NCBI GenBank assembly: GCA_022706165.1 | Contig: JAKJDA010000023.1 | Coordinates: 2,867 to 15,728 of the forward strand | Reading direction: 5' to 3' | Origin: Candidatus Hydrogenedentota bacterium | GTDB lineage: Bacteria > Hydrogenedentota > Hydrogenedentia > Hydrogenedentales > SLHB01 | DNA: 12,862 nt | Part shown: positions 2,969 through 12,862 of the stretch, piece after piece | How the letters are laid out: each line of letters begins with the position of its first letter | How positions within the stretch are numbered: the stretch's first letter is position 1 | Notes under the pieces: generated by a model | What the model was told of the DNA's origin: nothing | The model's database searches: none | Seen by the model: only the letters and a program-made list of their open reading frames with translations | Translations under genes and position numbers: made by a program

Positions 2969-3008
2969 GGACGATCTCCTTCTCGCACGATTCCGGTCGG
3001 CGCGGCGC

Positions 3009-3027
3009 AGGCCGCCGCCATCGGCCT
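3009..3027 (-). other. Leader hairpin upstream of the SIMPL gene
   Basis: AGGCCG (3009-3014) and CGGCCT (3022-3027) form a perfect 6-bp GC-rich stem with a 7-base loop, about 40 bases upstream of the SIMPL start codon. On the plus strand it is followed by the AT-rich GATTATTT, but no plus-strand gene ends before it, so a terminator role is unlikely. It may be an mRNA leader structure or simply reflect GC-rich composition. Confidence 0.25.
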
Positions 3028-3156
3028 GATTATTTCATAGAAGCGGGTCGCGATACGACCTCGCCGGATCAGAGCGGCGGGAGCGTTCCATTTCCTGGTT
3101 CTGTGGCGCGCCATGACCCTGTTGCGCCTACGCCCCGAGATTGGTAGTGTTTTTGC

Positions 3157-3606
3157 ATGAATGCCGACGCGACAACAACGAGCCGCCCGCGGCGGTCTTG
3201 CTCAGACCGCATGCAGGTATTGTGGTTGCGGGCCGGGTTCTTTTTGGCTGGCGCGATTCTGTTCGGGGCGGTCTTGTTTGTCTTGCACACATGGGGCGGC
3301 TCGTGGGCTCGCGTCGCGTACCGTCCCATACTCATGCAGCGCGTCGATGAAGCGCGCGCCCGAGGCGCGTTTGGTGAAGCCGAGGCGCACTTGTTGCGCG
3401 CGTTGAGGGTTTCGCCGGCGTATGCGCCGGACGTTTTCGCGGAGGTCCGTCTGGATCTATGCGTGATGCCGGAACTCGCGCAACGCCTCCGGCAGCTTGT
3501 GCCTTCCCTGGAAGAGCCTCATGTTTCGCATGTGGAGGCGGGACGCGACAGCGCGCTGTTTGCGGCGCCTATGGCGCACCCAAGCAGCACGGCGAACCCC
3601 GAATAA
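3157..3606 (+). CDS. Small membrane-anchored TPR-like protein, function unknown
   Basis: A 149-residue product. A short basic N terminus leads into one transmembrane helix (about residues 22-44, LWLRAGFFLAGAILFGAVLF), then a TPR-like helix pair (about 62-90, DEARARGAFGEAEAHLLRALRVSP with the typical small residues and terminal P). The remainder is low-complexity. The anchor plus TPR architecture resembles the N-terminal part of the protein encoded at 4805-5941, suggesting a related adaptor role in the glycan locus. No Shine-Dalgarno precedes ATG 3157, and an alternative ATG at 3211 would begin just before the membrane helix. The last 88 bases overlap the opposing O-antigen ligase gene, and the C-terminal residues there look unstructured. 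The gene may therefore be a 3'-truncated remnant that reads into its neighbour. I do not recognise a specific family. Confidence 0.55.
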   Translation: MNADATTTSRPRRSCSDRMQVLWLRAGFFLAGAILFGAVLFVLHTWGGSWARVAYRPILMQRVDEARARGAFGEAEAHLLRALRVSPAYAPDVFAEVRLDLCVMPELAQRLRQLVPSLEEPHVSHVEAGRDSALFAAPMAHPSSTANPE

Positions 3607-4808
3607 TACACGAACGGCATGACCAGGCTGATCGCGCCGTAGGCCCCAAGCAGGACTGCGTATGCCGCCAAGCGCGCCCGCTCGTCCGGATTCGAGCGCG
3701 CCCTCAGCCATGCGGCGCACAGCGAAGCGGCGATGCAACTCCACAGCCAGCCGTAGGCAGCCAGCCCCGTCCATCCGGTTTCAATCCAGAGCAGCAGCGG
3801 AACGTTGTGGACGGTCACGGCCGGCGTTTCGCCAAGCGGGTCTTCAAGGTGGATGACGGCTTTGTGCGCCGTATCAAGGCCAAAGCCGAACGCACCGCCT
3901 TCCTGGGCCCGGTTCATCATGCCCGCATAGTGCCAGACGCGCGAGGCGATTGAGGCGTCGCCGCCTTGCCGAAATTCCGTCGCCCGCCGCTGCACTGACT
4001 CGATCAATGCGGGGTGGATTGCCCAGACCATGGCCGTGATTCCCGCGGCGGCCGCGACGCCAACGCCCAGAACACGGAAACGGCGTCGCGACGCGACGAC
4101 TCGGAGCAGCGCGAGCGCGATGCATACGGCCCATCCCGCGCGAGACATCGTGAGGGCAAGGCCAACGGCGATCGCCAGGAACGCTCCTGCGGACAACCCC
4201 GCGCGAAAGCGCCCCCGCCACAATCGCCGTTCGAACAGCAGAAACGATGTCGCGAACAAGAACAGCAACGCTTGGTGATTGGGGTCCGGCAGGCCGACGC
4301 TCAAGCGCCGGATGCTCGAATTCGCGATGATCGAATCAGCCGCGGCGGGGACGTGACCCCAGAAAAAACTGTCCATGGCGGCCAGGCCGCTCAATGCCGC
4401 CGCGGACACGAACAGCGCGGGAATCCGGACTTGAACGGATTCGGATCGGGCAATTTCCGCAATTGCGTAGAATAGCAGGGCATACTGGAAAAATGTTTGT
4501 GTCGCGTTCCAGGAAGCGTCGGAATCGATCGAATGCGGCAGCGAGGCAAGACAGGCCGCCGCAAACAGCGCGATTCCCGATTCAATGTGCGCCCGGGCAA
4601 AAGGAGGGCGGCGTTCCGACACTCTCCGGATAACGTGGACCAGCACGGCAAGTCCGCCCATCGCTTTGGTCAACGTCCACCCTGCGCCCGGGATCGTCGT
4701 CAACGCCTGCAGCGGCAGGGAAAACACGAGGGCGTATAGGGCGTAGCGCTCGAGGGCGCACAGCGCGAGAGATAGACGGCTGTGCGGCGGCTGTGCGGCG
4801 AGAGTCAT
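3519..4808 (-). CDS. O-antigen ligase / Wzy-family polysaccharide polymerase-like membrane protein
   Basis: A 429-residue polytopic inner-membrane protein, about 10-12 hydrophobic segments, of the O-antigen ligase (Wzy_C/WaaL) family. These enzymes transfer or polymerise undecaprenyl-linked glycans on the periplasmic face. Visible signatures are GLPDPNHQA (about 172-180), TMSRAGW at the end of a helix (about 220-226), then a large periplasmic loop (about 263-335) with ASRVWHYA and VHNVPLLLWIETGWTG (about 333-348). The His and the Glu-Thr-Gly of the last motif are the usual conserved positions. Start: the ATG at 4808 overlaps the upstream stop as ATGA (4805-4808), indicating coupled translation. 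The open frame continues to 5303, but the extra 165 residues are hydrophilic, Arg-rich antisense of the neighbour. Ligase and polymerase cannot be distinguished from sequence alone. Confidence 0.85.
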   Translation of the reverse strand: MTLAAQPPHSRLSLALCALERYALYALVFSLPLQALTTIPGAGWTLTKAMGGLAVLVHVIRRVSERRPPFARAHIESGIALFAAACLASLPHSIDSDASWNATQTFFQYALLFYAIAEIARSESVQVRIPALFVSAAALSGLAAMDSFFWGHVPAAADSIIANSSIRRLSVGLPDPNHQALLFLFATSFLLFERRLWRGRFRAGLSAGAFLAIAVGLALTMSRAGWAVCIALALLRVVASRRRFRVLGVGVAAAAGITAMVWAIHPALIESVQRRATEFRQGGDASIASRVWHYAGMMNRAQEGGAFGFGLDTAHKAVIHLEDPLGETPAVTVHNVPLLLWIETGWTGLAAYGWLWSCIAASLCAAWLRARSNPDERARLAAYAVLLGAYGAISLVMPFVYYSGFAVLLGCAIGAANSALSRPASTCET

Positions 4809-5941
4809 TTCCGGTTCTCCAACAAGAGCGCCGCGGGCAGGTCCGCTCCCAGCGAAACGGCTTCCGCGGCGCGATCGCCGCCGGACAAACAGGCGACGAA
4901 TGCGTACGCCTGAAGCGCGTCCGGGGCGGGCAGAGCCTTCAGGCCAAAACGCTCCAATAGCAGTCGCCGCGCATCCATAGACATACGCGCCACGGCCTCG
5001 CCCGATGCGCATCCCGCCAGCAAGGCCGCCCCGCTTTCGCGTTCGATCCAGTCCTGGAATTGGCGCGGGGCGCGAGTCAACGGAGCAAAACAGAAGGTCG
5101 CGTCCCGAATCACTTCGCCCGAAACGGCATCCACCACGGCAAACCACCATCCCCTCGGCGTGGATACGCACCGGCGTCTCCCCTCCGACAACACCCCGTA
5201 CGTGTTGCCGGTCGCTCCTCCGTGGGCAAACACGGCGATGGCGGTCGCGGAGGTTTCTCCGACAGCGCACGACGGCAAGTCTTGCGGTTCGGCGCCGAGC
5301 CATGTCAGGAGCGCGGCGCTCTCCTCCGGGGTCGGCTCAGGGTTCAGTGCGCCAAAAGCGAGACTGCCGCAAATGCGGCCCGCCTCCACGAAATCCGTGG
5401 ATGCCATCGGCAACGGCGGCGCAGTCTCCCAAAACGTCAACAGAGGATTGTCCCCCTGCGCCGACAAGCGATGCATTCGCAAACGCGCGAGCGGATTCTT
5501 CATGGACTCGGGATAACGCGCTTCCAGGCGGTTCACGAAATCGCGAACGGCATCTTCGGTCGGCGGAACTCCGTTACTGGGAAGCAAGGCGCAGGCGTCG
5601 CCCGCTTCCGGCGCCGTTGCGAGGCAAATGCCGAGTCGGATTGCATCGGTCTGTCCCGCCGCTACGGCCAGATGTTCGATCGCGAATTCTGGAAAGCCGC
5701 GCTCGAACATGATCTCGGCCGTGATCGCGTGCAGCGGGCGGAAATACGGGTGGACGAGGAGGAGTTTTCGCGCGAATTGCGAGGCCTGGTCCCACTCGCG
5801 CTGCCGGGTGAGGTCTTCCAGGCGTCGCAGTTCGGGAAGCGCCGCGCCGGGAAGCGCGCGCGCGTTCATGGCGATTTGCGCAACCACCAACGCGAGAACC
5901 GTCGCAACGGCGGCAGCGGCGAGTATCGCGTCGCGCGGCAT
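4805..5941 (-). CDS. Membrane-anchored TPR plus ILEI/FAM3-like domain protein
   Basis: A 378-residue protein. An N-terminal transmembrane anchor (about 6-28) is followed by TPR-like helices (about 35-110, LTRQREWDQASQFARKLLLVHPYF and the next repeat). A middle region of unclear fold follows, then a C-terminal domain (about 230-365) that I read as ILEI/FAM3 (the fold of interleukin-like EMT inducer and of the POMGnT1 stem). The diagnostic pattern is RGWWFAVVDAVSGEVIRDATF (263-283), a DWIERESGAALLAGCASGEAVARMS stretch (297-321) and the following helix plus AYAFVA strand (345-350). The POMGnT1 stem domain binds sugars, so a glycan-binding role in the periplasm is a reasonable inference. ATG 5941 was chosen over ATG 5992 because it starts 10 bases after the upstream stop and directly before the anchor, although its Shine-Dalgarno is weak. 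The stop overlaps the ligase start (ATGA). Confidence 0.7.
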   Translation of the reverse strand: MPRDAILAAAAVATVLALVVAQIAMNARALPGAALPELRRLEDLTRQREWDQASQFARKLLLVHPYFRPLHAITAEIMFERGFPEFAIEHLAVAAGQTDAIRLGICLATAPEAGDACALLPSNGVPPTEDAVRDFVNRLEARYPESMKNPLARLRMHRLSAQGDNPLLTFWETAPPLPMASTDFVEAGRICGSLAFGALNPEPTPEESAALLTWLGAEPQDLPSCAVGETSATAIAVFAHGGATGNTYGVLSEGRRRCVSTPRGWWFAVVDAVSGEVIRDATFCFAPLTRAPRQFQDWIERESGAALLAGCASGEAVARMSMDARRLLLERFGLKALPAPDALQAYAFVACLSGGDRAAEAVSLGADLPAALLLENRK

Positions 5942-5951
5942 CGTGCGTCCG

Positions 5952-7100
5952 TTACGGCGCGCTGGCCGGCAATATAGACAGTTCACATCCATCGAACCAC
6001 AACGTTCCTGTCCCGCCTGGCGACGATTCGGGCGCGGGACGTCGCAAGAAGACCAGCATTTTGTCGGTGTCGCCGGGGACCGCGAACGAGATCGACGTCA
6101 AGGTCCAATCTTGCGTTCCGCTAACGGCGGGCTCGCTAAAACGGCAGAAGGCCTGATAGCCTTTTTCGCCGTGCTGGACTTCGATGCCGGCCTGTCCTGC
6201 CACGTCGCGACTTTTGACGTAGGCGCGCAACAAGTAGGAGGCGCCGGGAACAAGTCCGCTCACTTCCTGGGCAATGCCCAAATTGGCGCTGGCATCGCAA
6301 TTCACCATGAGCGAGGCCGAACCTTCGAGGAAGGGTTCCGAGCCGCTCCCTTGCTTTACGCCCTGCGTATCCATGATGTTCCAAGCGACGGGCCGTCCGT
6401 CGCGCCATTCTTCGAAACCGGCGTTTTGGAGCAGGTTGTTTCGCGCAATGGGCGTCGCTTTCAACTCCGCCCTGTCCCACCATACGGCACCGTTTCCGTC
6501 CGAAGCGAGGGAAGACGCCAAAACGAGTTGAAGACGCTTCGTGAACAGAGGCGGCTCGAATGACAAGGAAACCAATGTCCATTCGTTTTCGGAAAGCGTC
6601 GTCTTTTCTCCCTGTGCGGCAAACCGCGCCGCGCCGCCTTCTGCGTCCCGCGCTTCGGTGCGGACGTCTCCTTTTCCGCGAACAAGCGCCCGGGCCTGGT
6701 ACATCGTTTTGCCGGTCACGTTGATCGTCTGCTTGAGCTCGCAGGAGGCGACGCCTTCGATGCGCAGGCTGCGATCGCCGCTCGCCACCAGCGGCAACGA
6801 GGTCTCGGCGCGTGCGGCCTCGGCAGGCAAGACGGACCATCCCTCCGGGCTGTCGTTGGCGAATTTCTCGAAATCTCCATTGATCAGCGCATTGGGGCCT
6901 GCGGCCCCTTCGGCAAGGGGAGGGATCGGGACGGGATCATAGACCACCATCGTTCCCGGAGCCGGACGATCGGGAGCGGACGCCACGGGGCCGGTCTGCT
7001 CTTTTTGCGTTTTGCTGCAGCCGACCACAAGCGCCGCCGCACAGCCGATCGCCAGCATTCGCCCAACTCTTCCCCATCCGCAATGTTTTTCGGATCGCAT
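5952..7100 (-). CDS. Lipoprotein with two carbohydrate-binding-module-like domains
   Basis: A 382-residue lipoprotein. The signal sequence RMLAIGCAAALVVGC ends in a lipobox with the modified Cys at residue 28. A Pro/Gln-rich linker follows, then two tandem jelly-roll domains of the galactose-binding / CBM4_9 type. Domain 1 (about 70-214) opens with NALINGDFEKFANDSPEGW and closes with GAVWWDRAEL. Domain 2 (about 222-376) opens with NNLLQNAGFEEWRDGRPVAW and closes with GTLWFDGCELSIL. The N-GxFE-W openings and WxD closings are the family hallmarks, and the two copies look like an internal duplication. ATG 7100 is preferred because GAGGA lies nine bases upstream; ATG 7127 lacks a Shine-Dalgarno. 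It is first in the three-gene minus-strand operon. Expected at the periplasmic face or outer membrane, binding glycan; no catalytic domain is seen. Confidence 0.75.
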   Translation of the reverse strand: MRSEKHCGWGRVGRMLAIGCAAALVVGCSKTQKEQTGPVASAPDRPAPGTMVVYDPVPIPPLAEGAAGPNALINGDFEKFANDSPEGWSVLPAEAARAETSLPLVASGDRSLRIEGVASCELKQTINVTGKTMYQARALVRGKGDVRTEARDAEGGAARFAAQGEKTTLSENEWTLVSLSFEPPLFTKRLQLVLASSLASDGNGAVWWDRAELKATPIARNNLLQNAGFEEWRDGRPVAWNIMDTQGVKQGSGSEPFLEGSASLMVNCDASANLGIAQEVSGLVPGASYLLRAYVKSRDVAGQAGIEVQHGEKGYQAFCRFSEPAVSGTQDWTLTSISFAVPGDTDKMLVFLRRPAPESSPGGTGTLWFDGCELSILPASAP

Positions 7101-7167
7101 GCCTATTGTTCCTCGCGCGTAGTTCATTCGTTCGCCAAGCCGCTGCTACGGCGCCGCTTTTCGGGAC

Positions 7168-7195
7168 AGTATAGCACCGCGCCGCCAACCGTTCA
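7168..7195 (-). promoter_or_regulatory. Extended -10 promoter for the lipoprotein–ILEI–ligase operon
   Basis: On the minus strand the sequence reads TGCTATACT (7168-7176), an extended -10 (TGnTATAAT-like, hexamer 5/6). A poor -35 (TGAACG, 7190-7195) sits 16 bases upstream, as is usual when the TGn extension is present. The predicted start near 7161 gives a leader of about 60 bases to ATG 7100. Confidence 0.5.
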
Positions 7196-7212
7196 CGGCG
7201 ATCGCCTGCAGA

Positions 7213-7389
7213 ATGCGCGGGCAGGCGCTCAGGACGAGCGTGACTCAGCGAAGGCCGCCGGATCGATTGTTTCTCGGAGCGTTCCTCGGTATCCTTTCGT
7301 GGGCGATGTTTGGCGGGGCGCTGTTTTGGATGCGGCCGGATCTGGGAAAAAGGAGGACTGCTTCATGGGGGTTTCGATGTTGTTCGTGA
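7213..7389 (+). CDS. Possible 58-residue single-pass membrane peptide upstream of the sulfotransferase
   Basis: ATG at 7213 opens a 58-codon frame ending in TGA at 7387-7389. A basic, hydrophilic N terminus with QRRPPDR is followed by a clean hydrophobic run, LFLGAFLGILSWAMFGGAL, of about 22 residues, then FWMRPDLGKRR, so Arg/Asp flanks sit on both sides of a putative helix. It overlaps the sulfotransferase start (7365) by 25 bases, and the sulfotransferase Shine-Dalgarno lies within it. No clear Shine-Dalgarno precedes 7213. Chance frames of this length are common in GC-rich DNA, but the anchor-like composition is suggestive. I recognise no homologue. Confidence 0.35.
   Translation: MRGQALRTSVTQRRPPDRLFLGAFLGILSWAMFGGALFWMRPDLGKRRTASWGFRCCS
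7350..7356 (+). promoter_or_regulatory. Strong Shine-Dalgarno fixing the sulfotransferase start
   Basis: AAGGAGG, preceded by further A residues, is a full anti-SD match, eight bases upstream of ATG 7365. It decides against any of the longer in-frame upstream starts. Confidence 0.8.
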
Positions 7390-8384
7390 TCAGTTCGCCT
7401 CGGTCAGGCAGCACGATGCTGGAACGGATGCTCGAGTCGCACTCAATGATTCTCGGCGGTCCGGAGCCGCATCTCATAACCCCGCTGGCGCATCTGGGCG
7501 TATGGGATAAAGTGGACAAGGCCCCCTACGATCACATTCTCGCGGCAGAGTCGCAAAAGCTGTTTGTTGCGAAGTTGCCGCATGGCGAGCAGGACTATTG
7601 GGACGCGTGCCGGGCGTATTGCGACGTGTTGTATGGGCGGTATCTCGCGACCAGCGCGAAGACCGTCTGTCTTGACAAGACGCCGGCGTATGCCTTGACG
7701 CTGCCGTTTTTGATGAAGGTGTTTCCCGACGCGAAGTACGTCGTGCTGACGCGGCATCCGCTCGCGACTTTTTCGTCGTATGCCAATTCTTTTTTCAACG
7801 GCGATTACCAGGCGGCCCATGCCTACAATCCGTTGCTGGAGCGGTATGTGCCGGCCATTGCGCGGTTCCTGCGGCAGCAGTCGGTGGGGCATCTGCACGT
7901 GCGCTACGAGGACCTCGTCAAGGACCCGGAAACGTGGATGGAGCGCACGTACGCCTACATTGGCGTGCCGTTTGAGAGAGATACGGTCGATTATGGAGTC
8001 AAGACTCCAACGCAGAACAAGCCGGAGGGACTCGGCGATCCGTTGGGCGTGGATCGGCACACGCGTCCCACGACAGGATCGATCTCGAAATGGGTCGAGG
8101 AGCTTGCCGCGGACGCTGACAAGCGCGCATTTATGGAGAACGTCATGGGACGCCTCGATCCGGACGACTTGACCGTTCTCGGGTATCCCGTGGAGAGCCT
8201 CTGGAAGCCGCTCGAAGAGGCTCTGGGCCGGTCTATCGCGCCGAGGGCCAAGTCGTCGTTCTCGCTTTACCATGCCCAGCGCAAGGCGATTGTCGCGTTG
8301 CGCGCGGCGGCGCGGCGCCACGGCCCGCTGCGCAAGACGCTTTCGAAAATACGGTTGGCGTGCGATGTCCTGCTGCGCGAGTGA
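7365..8384 (+). CDS. PAPS-dependent sulfotransferase family protein
   Basis: A 339-residue enzyme predicted to transfer sulfate from PAPS to an acceptor hydroxyl or amine. The 5'-phosphosulfate loop is SSPRSGST (10-17), immediately after the first strand LFVIS. The 3'-phosphate motif is VVLTRHPLATFSSY (126-139), with Arg130 and a Ser at 137-138. KTPAY (105-109), VRYEDLVKDPE (179-189) and SISKW (239-243) complete the family pattern. No signal peptide or membrane helix is present, so it is cytosolic, as PAPS use requires. The acceptor cannot be read from sequence; nearby polysaccharide genes suggest a glycan or a glycan precursor, but that is inference. The last 40 residues are basic and Ala-rich. 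The start is fixed by the strong Shine-Dalgarno at 7350-7356. It is followed after 75 bases by a small helical protein gene on the same strand. Confidence 0.85.
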   Translation: MGVSMLFVISSPRSGSTMLERMLESHSMILGGPEPHLITPLAHLGVWDKVDKAPYDHILAAESQKLFVAKLPHGEQDYWDACRAYCDVLYGRYLATSAKTVCLDKTPAYALTLPFLMKVFPDAKYVVLTRHPLATFSSYANSFFNGDYQAAHAYNPLLERYVPAIARFLRQQSVGHLHVRYEDLVKDPETWMERTYAYIGVPFERDTVDYGVKTPTQNKPEGLGDPLGVDRHTRPTTGSISKWVEELAADADKRAFMENVMGRLDPDDLTVLGYPVESLWKPLEEALGRSIAPRAKSSFSLYHAQRKAIVALRAAARRHGPLRKTLSKIRLACDVLLRE

Positions 8385-9713: not shown

Positions 9714-11249
9714 ATGTTGATAGCCAGCGCTGCGGCGCTTTTTTTCATCTCTCTGCTTGCCACGGCGTTGCTTGTTCCCTTTGTCATGCGGTTCGCCCGG
9801 GCCATAGGCGCGGTGGATCGAGGCGGCTACCGGAAGGTTTTTCAGGGCGCGATGCCGTTGTTGGGCGGATTGGGCATAGCCTTGCCGCTCATCGCGTTGT
9901 GTCTGACCGGCGCCGTCGCAGGCTACGGCGTCGTTCGTCACTGGCAGTGGTTTTGGCTTTACCGTCGAGACGCGTTCGACGCGTTGTTTTCGTTGGCGGG
10001 CGAGCGCGGCAATTTTATGACGTTGGCATGGGGCGGCGCCGCCATTGTGGCGCTGGGTCTGGTGGACGACATCAAAGGGATGCGCGCTCGCTGGAAGCTT
10101 GCCGGGCAGACGGTTGTCGCGATCATGGTCTGCTTGTCGGGGCAGATGCTCACTACGGTGTCCCTGCCGTTTTGGGGGAGCGTCACCTTGGGCGCCGGCG
10201 TGGGCGGGCTGATTAGCGTGCTGTGGATAGTCGGCCTGATCAATGCGTTCAATTTGATCGATGGCGTGGACGGCCTTGCTTCGGGCGTTGCCTTGGTGGG
10301 GGCGGGGGCCCTGATCGCGCTGAGCCTGATTCAGCAAGATGTTTTCGTGATGTTTGCCGCCGCTGCGTTGACCGGGAGTCTGCTCGCGTTTCTGTTTTAT
10401 AATTTTCCTCCGGCGCGGATATTTCTTGGCGACACGGGCAGCATGTTTCTGGGGTATGCGTTGGCGTTGCTTTCGCTTTCGGGGGCGCAAAAATCCGAAG
10501 CCGCGATGGTTGTCGCGGGGCCCATGCTGGCCCTCAGCCTGCCGTTGTTTGAAACGGTCGTCTCCATTCTCCGCCGTTCCGTTCGAGGGGTTCCGTTATT
10601 TGCGGGAGATGCGCATCATACGCATCACCGGCTTTTGAGCAAGGGTTATTCGCAGCCGAGGATTGTGATCACCTTTTGCGGCGTGGCGCTGCTTCTTGCG
10701 GGAGCGGGGGTCATGTCCGCGTTGATTCCCGCTGGATCGCGCTGGGGGTGGTGTCCGTACGCGGTATACGCGGGGTCGCTTCTGTATATTGCCGTGCTGG
10801 CGGGTTATCTTCGCCCGGCGAGTTTCGAGGCGACCCTGGAACGGCATCAGCGCAACAAAGGTTTCCAGGCCTTGGCGCGCTACGTCGCTCCTCGGTTGGG
10901 CAGGGCCAGGCCGTCCGTTGAAACGGGGTTGCTGTTGGAACTGTGCCGGCAGGAACTGGAACTTGCGGGCATCGAGGTGCGGCGGCAGGCGAACCGGCTC
11001 GTGTTGCTTGCGACGCAGCCCGGCAGCGACGACGCGGCGCGAACGCCCTTCGAAACGTTTGGGGTGAAATCGTCCGACGGTCAGGATCTTTTGGTCGCGT
11101 ATGCGTTTGTTTCCGCCCCGGACGAAACCCGGCGCCAGGATGTTTGCGCCTGCTTGGCCGCGATTTTTGACGGGATGGATATCGACGAGTTGGACGCGGT
11201 CATTTCGCGCGATGGCAATCGGCGCAACTCAATCCCCGGACAGCCTTGA
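9714..11249 (+). CDS. WecA/MraY-family undecaprenyl-phosphate glycosyl-1-phosphate transferase with C-terminal extension
   Basis: A 511-residue integral membrane enzyme expected to move a sugar-1-phosphate from a UDP-sugar onto undecaprenyl phosphate, starting lipid-linked glycan synthesis at the inner membrane. About 11 hydrophobic segments fill residues 1-367. Family motifs are all present: LVDDIKG (116-122, the paired Asp), NAFNLIDGVDGLA (177-189), FLGDTGS (237-243) and the cytosolic HHTHHRL (301-307). The HHTHH loop is of the WecA/TagO/RgpG type rather than MraY. Residues about 370-511 form a soluble tail not found in standard WecA (about 350 residues); it contains a helix, LLLELCRQELELAGIEV, and strands such as LLVAYAFVS. 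I chose ATG 9714 because it begins the first membrane helix, has GAGG three bases upstream, and lies downstream of the promoter. TTG 9702 is a possible alternative. The 3' end overlaps the opposing gene by 50 bases. Confidence 0.9.
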   Translation: MLIASAAALFFISLLATALLVPFVMRFARAIGAVDRGGYRKVFQGAMPLLGGLGIALPLIALCLTGAVAGYGVVRHWQWFWLYRRDAFDALFSLAGERGNFMTLAWGGAAIVALGLVDDIKGMRARWKLAGQTVVAIMVCLSGQMLTTVSLPFWGSVTLGAGVGGLISVLWIVGLINAFNLIDGVDGLASGVALVGAGALIALSLIQQDVFVMFAAAALTGSLLAFLFYNFPPARIFLGDTGSMFLGYALALLSLSGAQKSEAAMVVAGPMLALSLPLFETVVSILRRSVRGVPLFAGDAHHTHHRLLSKGYSQPRIVITFCGVALLLAGAGVMSALIPAGSRWGWCPYAVYAGSLLYIAVLAGYLRPASFEATLERHQRNKGFQALARYVAPRLGRARPSVETGLLLELCRQELELAGIEVRRQANRLVLLATQPGSDDAARTPFETFGVKSSDGQDLLVAYAFVSAPDETRRQDVCACLAAIFDGMDIDELDAVISRDGNRRNSIPGQP

Positions 11250-12862
11250 CCGCCTCGTCGTGTGTTCCGTGTTCTCGTGCACACTGCTCCCATTGCTTGC
11301 CCAATTCCGGGATGTGCGTGAACTCGCGAGTCTTTATCAGGGCGCACAAAAGAGACTCGTACACGGAGACGGGACAATGCGCGGATCGGTATGCTTGCCA
11401 ATACAAAGGCAAGGCCTGCAATGCGTCGTCCTGTTTCCATAACAACATGTCCGCAAGGCGCACCAGCGCCTCTGTGCGTGCGGCCATCGTGGTAAACGGC
11501 TGATGCAGCGCCAGCCGGTACGCTCGTTGCGCGTTTGCATAGCGGGCCATTTCCTCGAATCGCATGGCGCGCGAGGCCAGCGAGTCGCCCTCGCCAACGT
11601 CCCCGTTCGCGCTCCAAACGATCGGGCTCGCCGGTTCCGGAGCATCGGGCTCCGCCGTGCGGAACAAAACGGACGACCCGATCAAGACCGCTGCAACCCC
11701 GCCTGCCAAACCCAGAAAGATCCTTCGGTCGCGCGGCGCGATGGCGCGGGCGTACGCCATCCAGTCGGCGCATAGGCGCTTCGTCGAAAAATCATTTGCG
11801 TCTTGCGAGGCGGCCCCGTTGTTTTCCGGATCGGTAAGCCCGATCGCCGCGCCCGCGAGCATCCACCAAAGCATCATGGCGGTATACACCTGAAACGTTC
11901 CGTCCACCAAGGCGATGGTCATCCATGCGCATCCGCTTGCCGCGGACCCCAGCGCCAGGTAACGCGCCAACGGAACAGCTCCGCCCCGGCGCCACAATTG
12001 GCCTATCAGGCCGAACATGAGCGCCGTCCATAACGCAAGACCCGGAATTCCGGTTTCAAACAAAAACTTGCGATAGTCGCAATGGGCGGCCAGCAGCACG
12101 CCCGGGGCATAGGGCGATCCCGCCGTGAATTGTTCGACCGAGCCCAAGCCGTGACCGCGAATAGGATGCTCCACAATCGCCGCGTCGATGGCGCGCCAAA
12201 GTTCCTTGCGCGATTCAAGGGAGCTTTGCTCTTTTGGGTTGGGATGCAACAGGGCCGCTGTGCGTTGTTGAAACACGCCGCTCGCAAACCCAACCGCCGT
12301 GAACAGCGCCAGAAAAAGAGCCAACAGCAGAAAACGCTTGAGCCCAGCGCACAAGACCGCGACTTCGATTACAAAGGCGACCATCGCCGAGCGGGTGGCG
12401 GTGGCGATGAGGGCCACGGGCATCAGCGCGGCGAGGCCCAGAAAGCCTGTACGGGCCGCCCATCGCTTCGAAAACAGGGCGCATCCTATCGCTATGGGGA
12501 ACAGCACCAACAACATATCCCCATACGCCTGCGGATAGTCCTTGAATCCATCGAGGCGGCGCCAATTCATCGCGTTGCCGGAAAAAGACTTTACCATTTC
12601 CGCAAAACCGGCCTTGTTCACCACCCATAGGAATTGGGCGCCGCCGATGAGGAGCGTGCCCACGGCGATGAGGAGAGACACCCAGATCAAGGCCCGCGCA
12701 AAACGCTGGGAACGAGCGGCGCACGCCATTCCGAAGACAACCACATAGGACGCGTAATTGATCCATTGTCGAAAACCGAAAAAGGGGTTCGTGGACCAAA
12801 GCAATGACAGGCCGCAGACCAGCAGGAATGCCGCGGCGATCCATGCCACAGGCTTGCGCGCC
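11200..12862 (-). CDS. O-antigen ligase-like membrane protein with C-terminal TPR region (5' end outside window)
   Basis: A second Wzy_C/WaaL-family protein; the frame stays open to the window edge, so the N terminus is missing. Counting from the GTG at 12849, hydrophobic segments run to about 395. Conserved positions are GFKDYPQAYGDMLL (101-114), TATRSAMVAF (150-159) and a periplasmic loop with ESRKELWRAI (212-221) and HCDYRKFLFETGIPG (256-270), matching HN...ETG..G of the other ligase here. Residues about 410-540 form TPR-like helix pairs (RFEEMARYANAQRAYRLALHQP, ALVRLADMLL...), predicted outside the membrane after the helix at 376-396. The protein ends in CADCHRAK, containing a CxxCH sequence. 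It probably polymerises or ligates lipid-linked glycan in the periplasm. Its last 50 bases overlap the WecA-like gene tail-to-tail. Confidence 0.85.
   Translation of the reverse strand, partial: ARKPVAWIAAAFLLVCGLSLLWSTNPFFGFRQWINYASYVVVFGMACAARSQRFARALIWVSLLIAVGTLLIGGAQFLWVVNKAGFAEMVKSFSGNAMNWRRLDGFKDYPQAYGDMLLVLFPIAIGCALFSKRWAARTGFLGLAALMPVALIATATRSAMVAFVIEVAVLCAGLKRFLLLALFLALFTAVGFASGVFQQRTAALLHPNPKEQSSLESRKELWRAIDAAIVEHPIRGHGLGSVEQFTAGSPYAPGVLLAAHCDYRKFLFETGIPGLALWTALMFGLIGQLWRRGGAVPLARYLALGSAASGCAWMTIALVDGTFQVYTAMMLWWMLAGAAIGLTDPENNGAASQDANDFSTKRLCADWMAYARAIAPRDRRIFLGLAGGVAAVLIGSSVLFRTAEPDAPEPASPIVWSANGDVGEGDSLASRAMRFEEMARYANAQRAYRLALHQPFTTMAARTEALVRLADMLLWKQDDALQALPLYWQAYRSAHCPVSVYESLLCALIKTREFTHIPELGKQWEQCAREHGTHDEAVKAVRGLSCADCHRAK

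Follow-up and report, generated by a model that had tools for sequence, protein, structure and literature searches.

Three adjacent genes on the reverse strand (positions 3519–7100) of a stretch of Candidatus Hydrogenedentota DNA, hereafter the window (12,862 bases, equal to bases 2867–15728 of a 15,728-base contig from a genome of 713 contigs that is 83% complete), encode a lipoprotein with two carbohydrate-binding domains, a membrane-anchored protein with a tetratricopeptide repeat (TPR)-like region and an ILEI/FAM3 domain, and a membrane protein of the Wzy/WaaL type. We see an even chance that they form a periplasmic glycan-handling set around the Wzy/WaaL-type enzyme, in which the ILEI protein is a diverged offshoot of a family of WecA partners. 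The most economical explanation is that membrane-anchored TPR-ILEI proteins are partners of enzymes of polyprenyl-linked glycans, which are WecA-type enzymes in most of the order and a Wzy enzyme in the lineage of the window.

The lipoprotein gene (7100–5952, with an alternative start at 7127) is followed after a 10-base gap by the ILEI gene, whose ATG is at 5941 and whose stop codon (4807–4805) overlaps the ATG of the Wzy gene (wzy1) at 4808 as ATGA. Re-reading of the sequence confirmed these coordinates and this spacing, which had been given in an earlier reading made from the sequence by itself (the sequence-only reading). No promoter-like sites were found at window positions 3000–7500 and the terminator predictions in the window were not above those of shuffled sequences, so that a single transcript is suggested by the gene spacing only. 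The lipoprotein (5952..7100) is 382 amino acid (aa) residues long, has a VVGC lipobox recognized by eye and matches CBM_4_9 in two stretches (PF02018; E = 5.3e-15, 56.4 bits versus the Pfam cut-off of 25.9). Its second half, scanned alone, also matches (E = 1.3e-6). The earlier description of a lipoprotein with duplicated jelly-roll domains was thus correct, as was the enzyme class of the 429-aa product of wzy1 (3519..4808), which matches Wzy_C of the O-antigen ligase/polymerase superfamily (PF04932; E = 7.6e-14, 52.2 bits versus the Pfam cut-off of 31.7). Against the NCBIfam equivalog RfaL of the WaaL ligase, the Wzy protein scored 10.3 bits, compared with a cut-off of 277. Given that no NCBIfam equivalog cut-off was reached, the Wzy_C protein may be either a ligase or a polymerase.

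The product of the middle gene (4805..5941, reverse strand) consists of 378 aa with an N-terminal anchor, and its ILEI domain spans approximately residues 232–369 (window positions ~4835–5248). The ILEI/FAM3 fold proposed for it was borne out by a sub-threshold match to PF15711, a profile comparison and a structural model. With hhalign, the profile of the window protein, its relative in genome G006 and P0001 aligned with that of 16 ILEI-TPR proteins of the order at a probability of 95.8 and an E of 7e-9 over 166 columns. The best matches of the low-confidence model (predicted local distance difference test score of 56) were the POMGnT1 stem and FAM3, which gives the window ILEI domain the FAM3/POMGnT1-stem fold. 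A chance match to ILEI was considered and ruled out by the strong profile comparison and by the same sub-threshold match in the G006 relative (PF15711 E = 9.7e-4 at the matching place, likewise under the cut-off). Scores for PF15711 reached up to 50.9 bits in relatives of the order. As to the TPRs proposed for the anchored protein, Pfam called no TPR in it, and helices 36–94 of the model resemble TPRs. With the window protein alone, no match was found in the PDB by phmmer up to an E of 10, a scan of the genome contigs yielded 20 stretches with no relative confirmed, and a protein database search yielded one near-identical match (98%, Candidatus Hydrogenedentes bacterium) among the 7,997 scored candidates that shared most words with it.

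The sequence-only reading had also suggested the ILEI domain protein as a dedicated partner of the Wzy enzyme. In the phylum, however, the main partner of the ILEI-TPR proteins is a WecA-type enzyme. The phylum sample comprised 68 Candidatus Hydrogenedentota genomes (G000 to G067). A Pfam ILEI search matched 23 of 119 genomes, 20 of which were in the phylum. By profile search, a transmembrane (TM)-TPR-ILEI protein of ~350 aa was identified in 18 of the 68 genomes; 21 matched in all, and the short partial matches of G009, G015, and G030 are outside the 18. Among these 18, the copy of G038 was split into two frames and that of G064 was cut by the contig end. A WecA-type gene lies directly after the TM-TPR-ILEI gene on the same strand in 17 of the 17 loci in which the contig continues, a count that leaves out L073, where the contig ends inside the ILEI gene. 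The possible start codon of the WecA-type gene (ATG, once GTG), which is counted here as a possible and not an established start, overlaps the ILEI stop codon by exactly 4 bases in 16 loci and by 1 base in the other. At L072:8449–9521, the locus of G038, the ILEI-TPR gene occupies two overlapping frames and is followed by an intact WecA-type gene, reflecting either an assembly error or a broken gene.

PF00953 was over its cut-off at 16 of the 17 WecA-type places, and a protein scan confirmed all four of those tested. In four of four partner enzymes tested, the scores for TIGR02380 (ECA_wecA) were 123.8–134.4 bits versus a cut-off of 326.05, yet this was their best family. The partner enzymes are therefore named WecA-type, and the sugar they use is presumed. 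By eye, the other neighbors seem to vary between families of the order. In a tree of 36 WecA cores, 16 of which were ILEI-paired (the contig-end piece of L056, 91 aa, was too short and left out), the paired genes and that of G030 formed one clade of 17 (support 100/100). The open reading frame of G030 (L138:5363–6541) has an N-terminal stretch like the anchor of the ILEI-TPR proteins fused to WecA, and neither the Pfam ILEI search nor the profile search found an ILEI gene in this genome. This would fit a loss of the partner in which its anchor became joined to WecA.

Sugar binding has been reported for several ILEI/FAM3 domains, and the POMGnT1 stem binds beta-linked N-acetylglucosamine (GlcNAc) via Arg129, Asp179, and Arg207 (PMC9802357, available excerpts). 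Arg129 and Asp179 correspond to Arg221 and Asp272 of P0002, an ILEI-TPR protein of the WecA branch, by residue numbering in a HMMER alignment, and Arg207 probably corresponds to Arg307, which was placed via the G-x-K-G motif that follows. Among the matches listed, 29 relatives of the WecA branch from the protein database were scored (of 7,995 candidates), two of which are already named "interleukin-like EMT inducer domain-containing protein" by NCBI. The three residues were kept in 29, 29, and 26 of them, respectively, and all three in 26; because the set covers only the candidates listed and includes some genome loci again, the count leans to near relatives. Moreover, Arg221 and Asp272 are among the 27 invariant columns of 352 in these relatives, and Arg307 ranks 68th. 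For this tally one domain was counted per protein, as some proteins have extra part-domains (32 rows for 29 proteins in alignment A5). In other bacterial ILEI classes the full triad is rare: it was found in three of five large proteins and one of two PMT_2-fused domains, and in none of seven YfhO-labeled domains, eight rows of other multi-TM proteins, two and six rows of TPR proteins, and four small signal-peptide proteins.

The association of the three window genes was traced through their relatives. In the first search, which covered 59 genomes besides the source, a near full-length ILEI relative was found in one genome, and two more gave short matches. In this one, G006, the ILEI and Wzy genes overlap as ATGA as they do in the window, and the lipoprotein gene sits behind the Wzy gene. 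In G021, the slot before the Wzy gene contains a protein that has two CBM_4_9 stretches, weak TPR hits and, by eye, a TM segment. The window lipoprotein matches the CBM part of this protein (E = 3e-29), and a protein of G017 with clear TPRs matches its N-terminal part (E = 3e-6). Thus, this one slot can carry either an ILEI or a CBM_4_9 protein. Divergently upstream in G006 are genes for a Bac_transf sugar transferase, a GHMP kinase and a small TM protein with a weak TPR hit, and the same three were recognized by eye upstream in G021. Of the lipoprotein matches in the 68 genomes, that of the window itself and those ranked next, in G006, G021, and G017, are ~3 kb or less from relatives of wzy1. 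As a separate observation, Wzy genes more distantly related within the family are overlapped by an upstream gene whose product is apparently secreted and ~340–390 aa long (L019:6375–7445, L021:7177–8358, L022:1597–2613, L023:3108–4184, and L024:2042–3100). The upstream protein of L022, the one tested, had no Pfam family.

Several results weigh against a glycan-handling set with a diverged WecA-partner protein at its center. The match of the window protein to PF15711 (E = 2.7e-4, 21.8 bits, residues 263–349) is under the 27-bit cut-off, and so are those of the domain piece (23.9 bits) and the genome search (25.1 bits). The hhalign alignment covers only residues 190–356 of the window protein, so that the TPR parts, which lie outside it, may not be homologous between the two branches, and the alignment behind the model contained ILEI relatives, which makes the fold match partly non-independent. 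In addition, the 16-protein profile search of the genomes did not report the window and G006 genes at an E of 0.001, which indicates strong divergence from the ILEI-TPR family. The pocket varies as well. In the 16 WecA-paired genome loci of alignment A1 (L057, L072, and L073 were left out), the first Arg is kept in 15, the Asp in 13 and the last Arg in 11, and all three in only 8; a single genus (g24) accounts for four of the eight exceptions, each of its four genomes being without the last Arg. The window domain keeps the first Arg only, and that of G006 keeps the Asp and has lost the first Arg, its last residue being alignment-dependent. The earlier view that the lipoprotein and the ILEI protein both look glycan-binding is thus weak for the latter. 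Likewise, the three-gene linkage recurs in G006 but is rare, as the complete set occurs in two of the 68 genomes, in one of them with permuted gene order, and is no widespread module. Of the 14 genomes with a wzy1 match, the remaining 10 have no lipoprotein match on the same contig. WecA catalysis takes place at the cytoplasmic side of the membrane, which would leave a periplasmic lectin without an obvious catalytic role there. Finally, both docking and sugar binding are steps that we infer from sequence.

With these points considered, the mechanism we infer is that of a periplasmic glycan tether or sensor. The main job of the ILEI-TPR family would be that of a co-translated partner of a WecA-type enzyme, and the ILEI domain of the WecA branch most likely binds GlcNAc. 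In the window, the anchored TPR-ILEI protein would be co-translated with the Wzy protein and dock on its periplasmic side, where it and the two-CBM lipoprotein may hold or guide a lipid-linked glycan or its acceptor. Sugar binding by the window ILEI protein is doubtful and is not claimed here; with its GlcNAc pocket eroded, this copy might bind another sugar, bind by another face or serve as an adaptor. A more far-reaching version is offered tentatively: a membrane-anchored GlcNAc lectin of the FAM3/POMGnT1 kind, which is known from animals, would in Hydrogenedentota be the dedicated, translationally coupled extracytoplasmic partner of the WecA-type enzymes that start polyprenyl-linked glycans, recognizing the GlcNAc which these place on the lipid carrier, and would in the lineage of the window have moved onto a polymerase/ligase with its pocket re-tuned.

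It is possible, at less than even chances, that the window ILEI protein is a decayed lectin which acts with its TPR-like part as a non-binding scaffold for the Wzy protein, leaving the glycan to the CBM lipoprotein. The loss of the Asp and the second Arg in the window is consistent with this, since Fam3L1 of C. elegans FAMP-1, a domain without the same two residues, showed no sugar binding (PMC9802357, available excerpts), and the lipoprotein recurs by relatives of wzy1 in three genomes and the ILEI protein in G006 only. However, the slot in G021 is filled by a protein that combines a TPR-like part with CBM domains, which suggests that a carbohydrate binder is needed there, and most other bacterial ILEI classes are also without the full triad and may bind via other residues.

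A regulatory sensor is a comparably tentative proposal, in which the TPR-ILEI protein would sense periplasmic glycans or lipid-linked intermediates and tune its partner, mostly a WecA-type enzyme and here the Wzy protein. It accounts for the coupling of a protein predicted to face outward to WecA, which carries out its reaction at the inner face, and the fixed small overlap suggests a fixed stoichiometry. A tether or hand-off role, however, fits equally well, and the predicted outward orientation comes from a weak charge bias in the sequences: among the matches listed, the charge before the TM segment is more positive than that after it in 19 of the 29 relatives, equal in five and less positive in five, and it is even in the window protein. 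That the three genes are coincidental neighbors, i.e., ordinary surface-polysaccharide genes with no joint mechanism beyond co-expression, is improbable, as their rarity and differing order and the lack of an ILEI match in 23 of the family's 25 genomes are outweighed by the ATGA overlap of the ILEI and Wzy genes in both genomes, the lipoprotein near wzy1 in four genomes and the 17/17 coupling of ILEI-TPR proteins to another membrane glycan enzyme.

The closest known systems share parts of this arrangement. Similar to the TPR-ILEI proteins, the human POMGnT1 stem (PDB 5ggf and 5ggj) ties an ILEI/FAM3 fold to a glycosyltransferase, and its triad is often matched in full in the WecA-partner branch. 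The POMGnT1 stem is eukaryotic and fused to its own catalytic domain, whereas the proteins described here are separate anchored TPR proteins, the window copy retaining the first Arg alone. FAM3A, FAM3B, and FAM3C (ILEI, PANDER) are animal proteins that are not known to have a TPR, a TM anchor or a partner enzyme. ILEI was found in 40 of 386 genomes, 20 of them among the 318 outside the phylum. The 10 multi-TM ILEI proteins scanned, two of which were from the phylum, included four of YfhO type, one with PMT_2 over its cut-off and five with no other family. ILEI domains inside YfhO-type membrane proteins were seen at L178, L171, L174, and L175, all outside the phylum. For YfhO of B. subtilis, a role in the transfer of GlcNAc from C55-P-GlcNAc has been proposed (PMC7389260, available excerpts). 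These bacterial PF15711 proteins, in YfhO-type or beside PMT_2-type domains, also tie ILEI to membrane sugar transferases; different from the WecA partners, they are fused and multi-TM, mostly without the full triad, and no overlap with WecA was seen. Other ILEI carriers are TPR proteins, one of which has a Bac_transf gene after it, and a 1,899-aa ILEI protein sits between Wzy_C and WecA-type genes. By eye, the ILEI genes at L057, L164, and L165 have no glycan neighbor, so that the link between ILEI and glycans is frequent and not universal. The window resembles WaaL/Wzy systems in its Wzy_C domain, and the WecA/TagO-type polyprenyl-phosphate N-acetylhexosamine-1-phosphate transferases (PF00953) are the partner enzymes in all 17 relatives. 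To our knowledge, the known WecA systems are without an ILEI partner.

The window also contains a WecA-like gene of its own (9714–11249, forward strand), with a C-terminal extension of ~170 aa. It is one of the long forms, which group in the tree as an 11-member clade and are not ILEI-paired. The possibility that the window ILEI gene is a remnant from this gene was rejected, because its clade differs from that of the ILEI-paired genes. A second Wzy_C protein (11200–12861, reverse strand; E = 1.6e-15), cut by the contig end and TPR-like by eye in its C-terminal part, is encoded by a gene that converges on the WecA-like gene and overlaps it with its 3' end. A sulfotransferase gene (7362–8384, forward strand; PF13469, E = 3.8e-33) is divergent from the operon and adjoins the glycan genes, suggesting possible glycan sulfation. 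On the other side, a small single-TM protein of 149 aa, TPR-like by eye (3157..3606, forward strand), is encoded convergently with wzy1 with an overlap of 88 bases. No Pfam family was over its cut-off for this product. Its relative in G021 (L018:10922–11239; 32% identity, E = 1.6e-8) is also convergent with a Wzy gene, and it is a possible associated gene.

ILEI/FAM3 domains have been studied as animal signaling proteins, and their biochemistry is unclear. In open-licence PMC articles, no paper was found on a WecA-coupled ILEI partner, on PF15711 or on WecA with Wzy, tetratricopeptide and carbohydrate-binding proteins; none was found, by title among the matches listed, on a bacterial ILEI domain; and the one paper found on ILEI and glycosyltransferases concerned animals. 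We know of no such partner for the WecA-type step. If our reading is correct, a bacterial branch that often keeps the triad and is tied through a 4-base overlap to a probable GlcNAc-1-phosphate transferase would suggest that ILEI/FAM3 domains had an ancient function as lectins in the assembly of lipid-linked glycans, and the TPR-ILEI proteins of this phylum would be periplasmic accessories to WecA-type enzymes.

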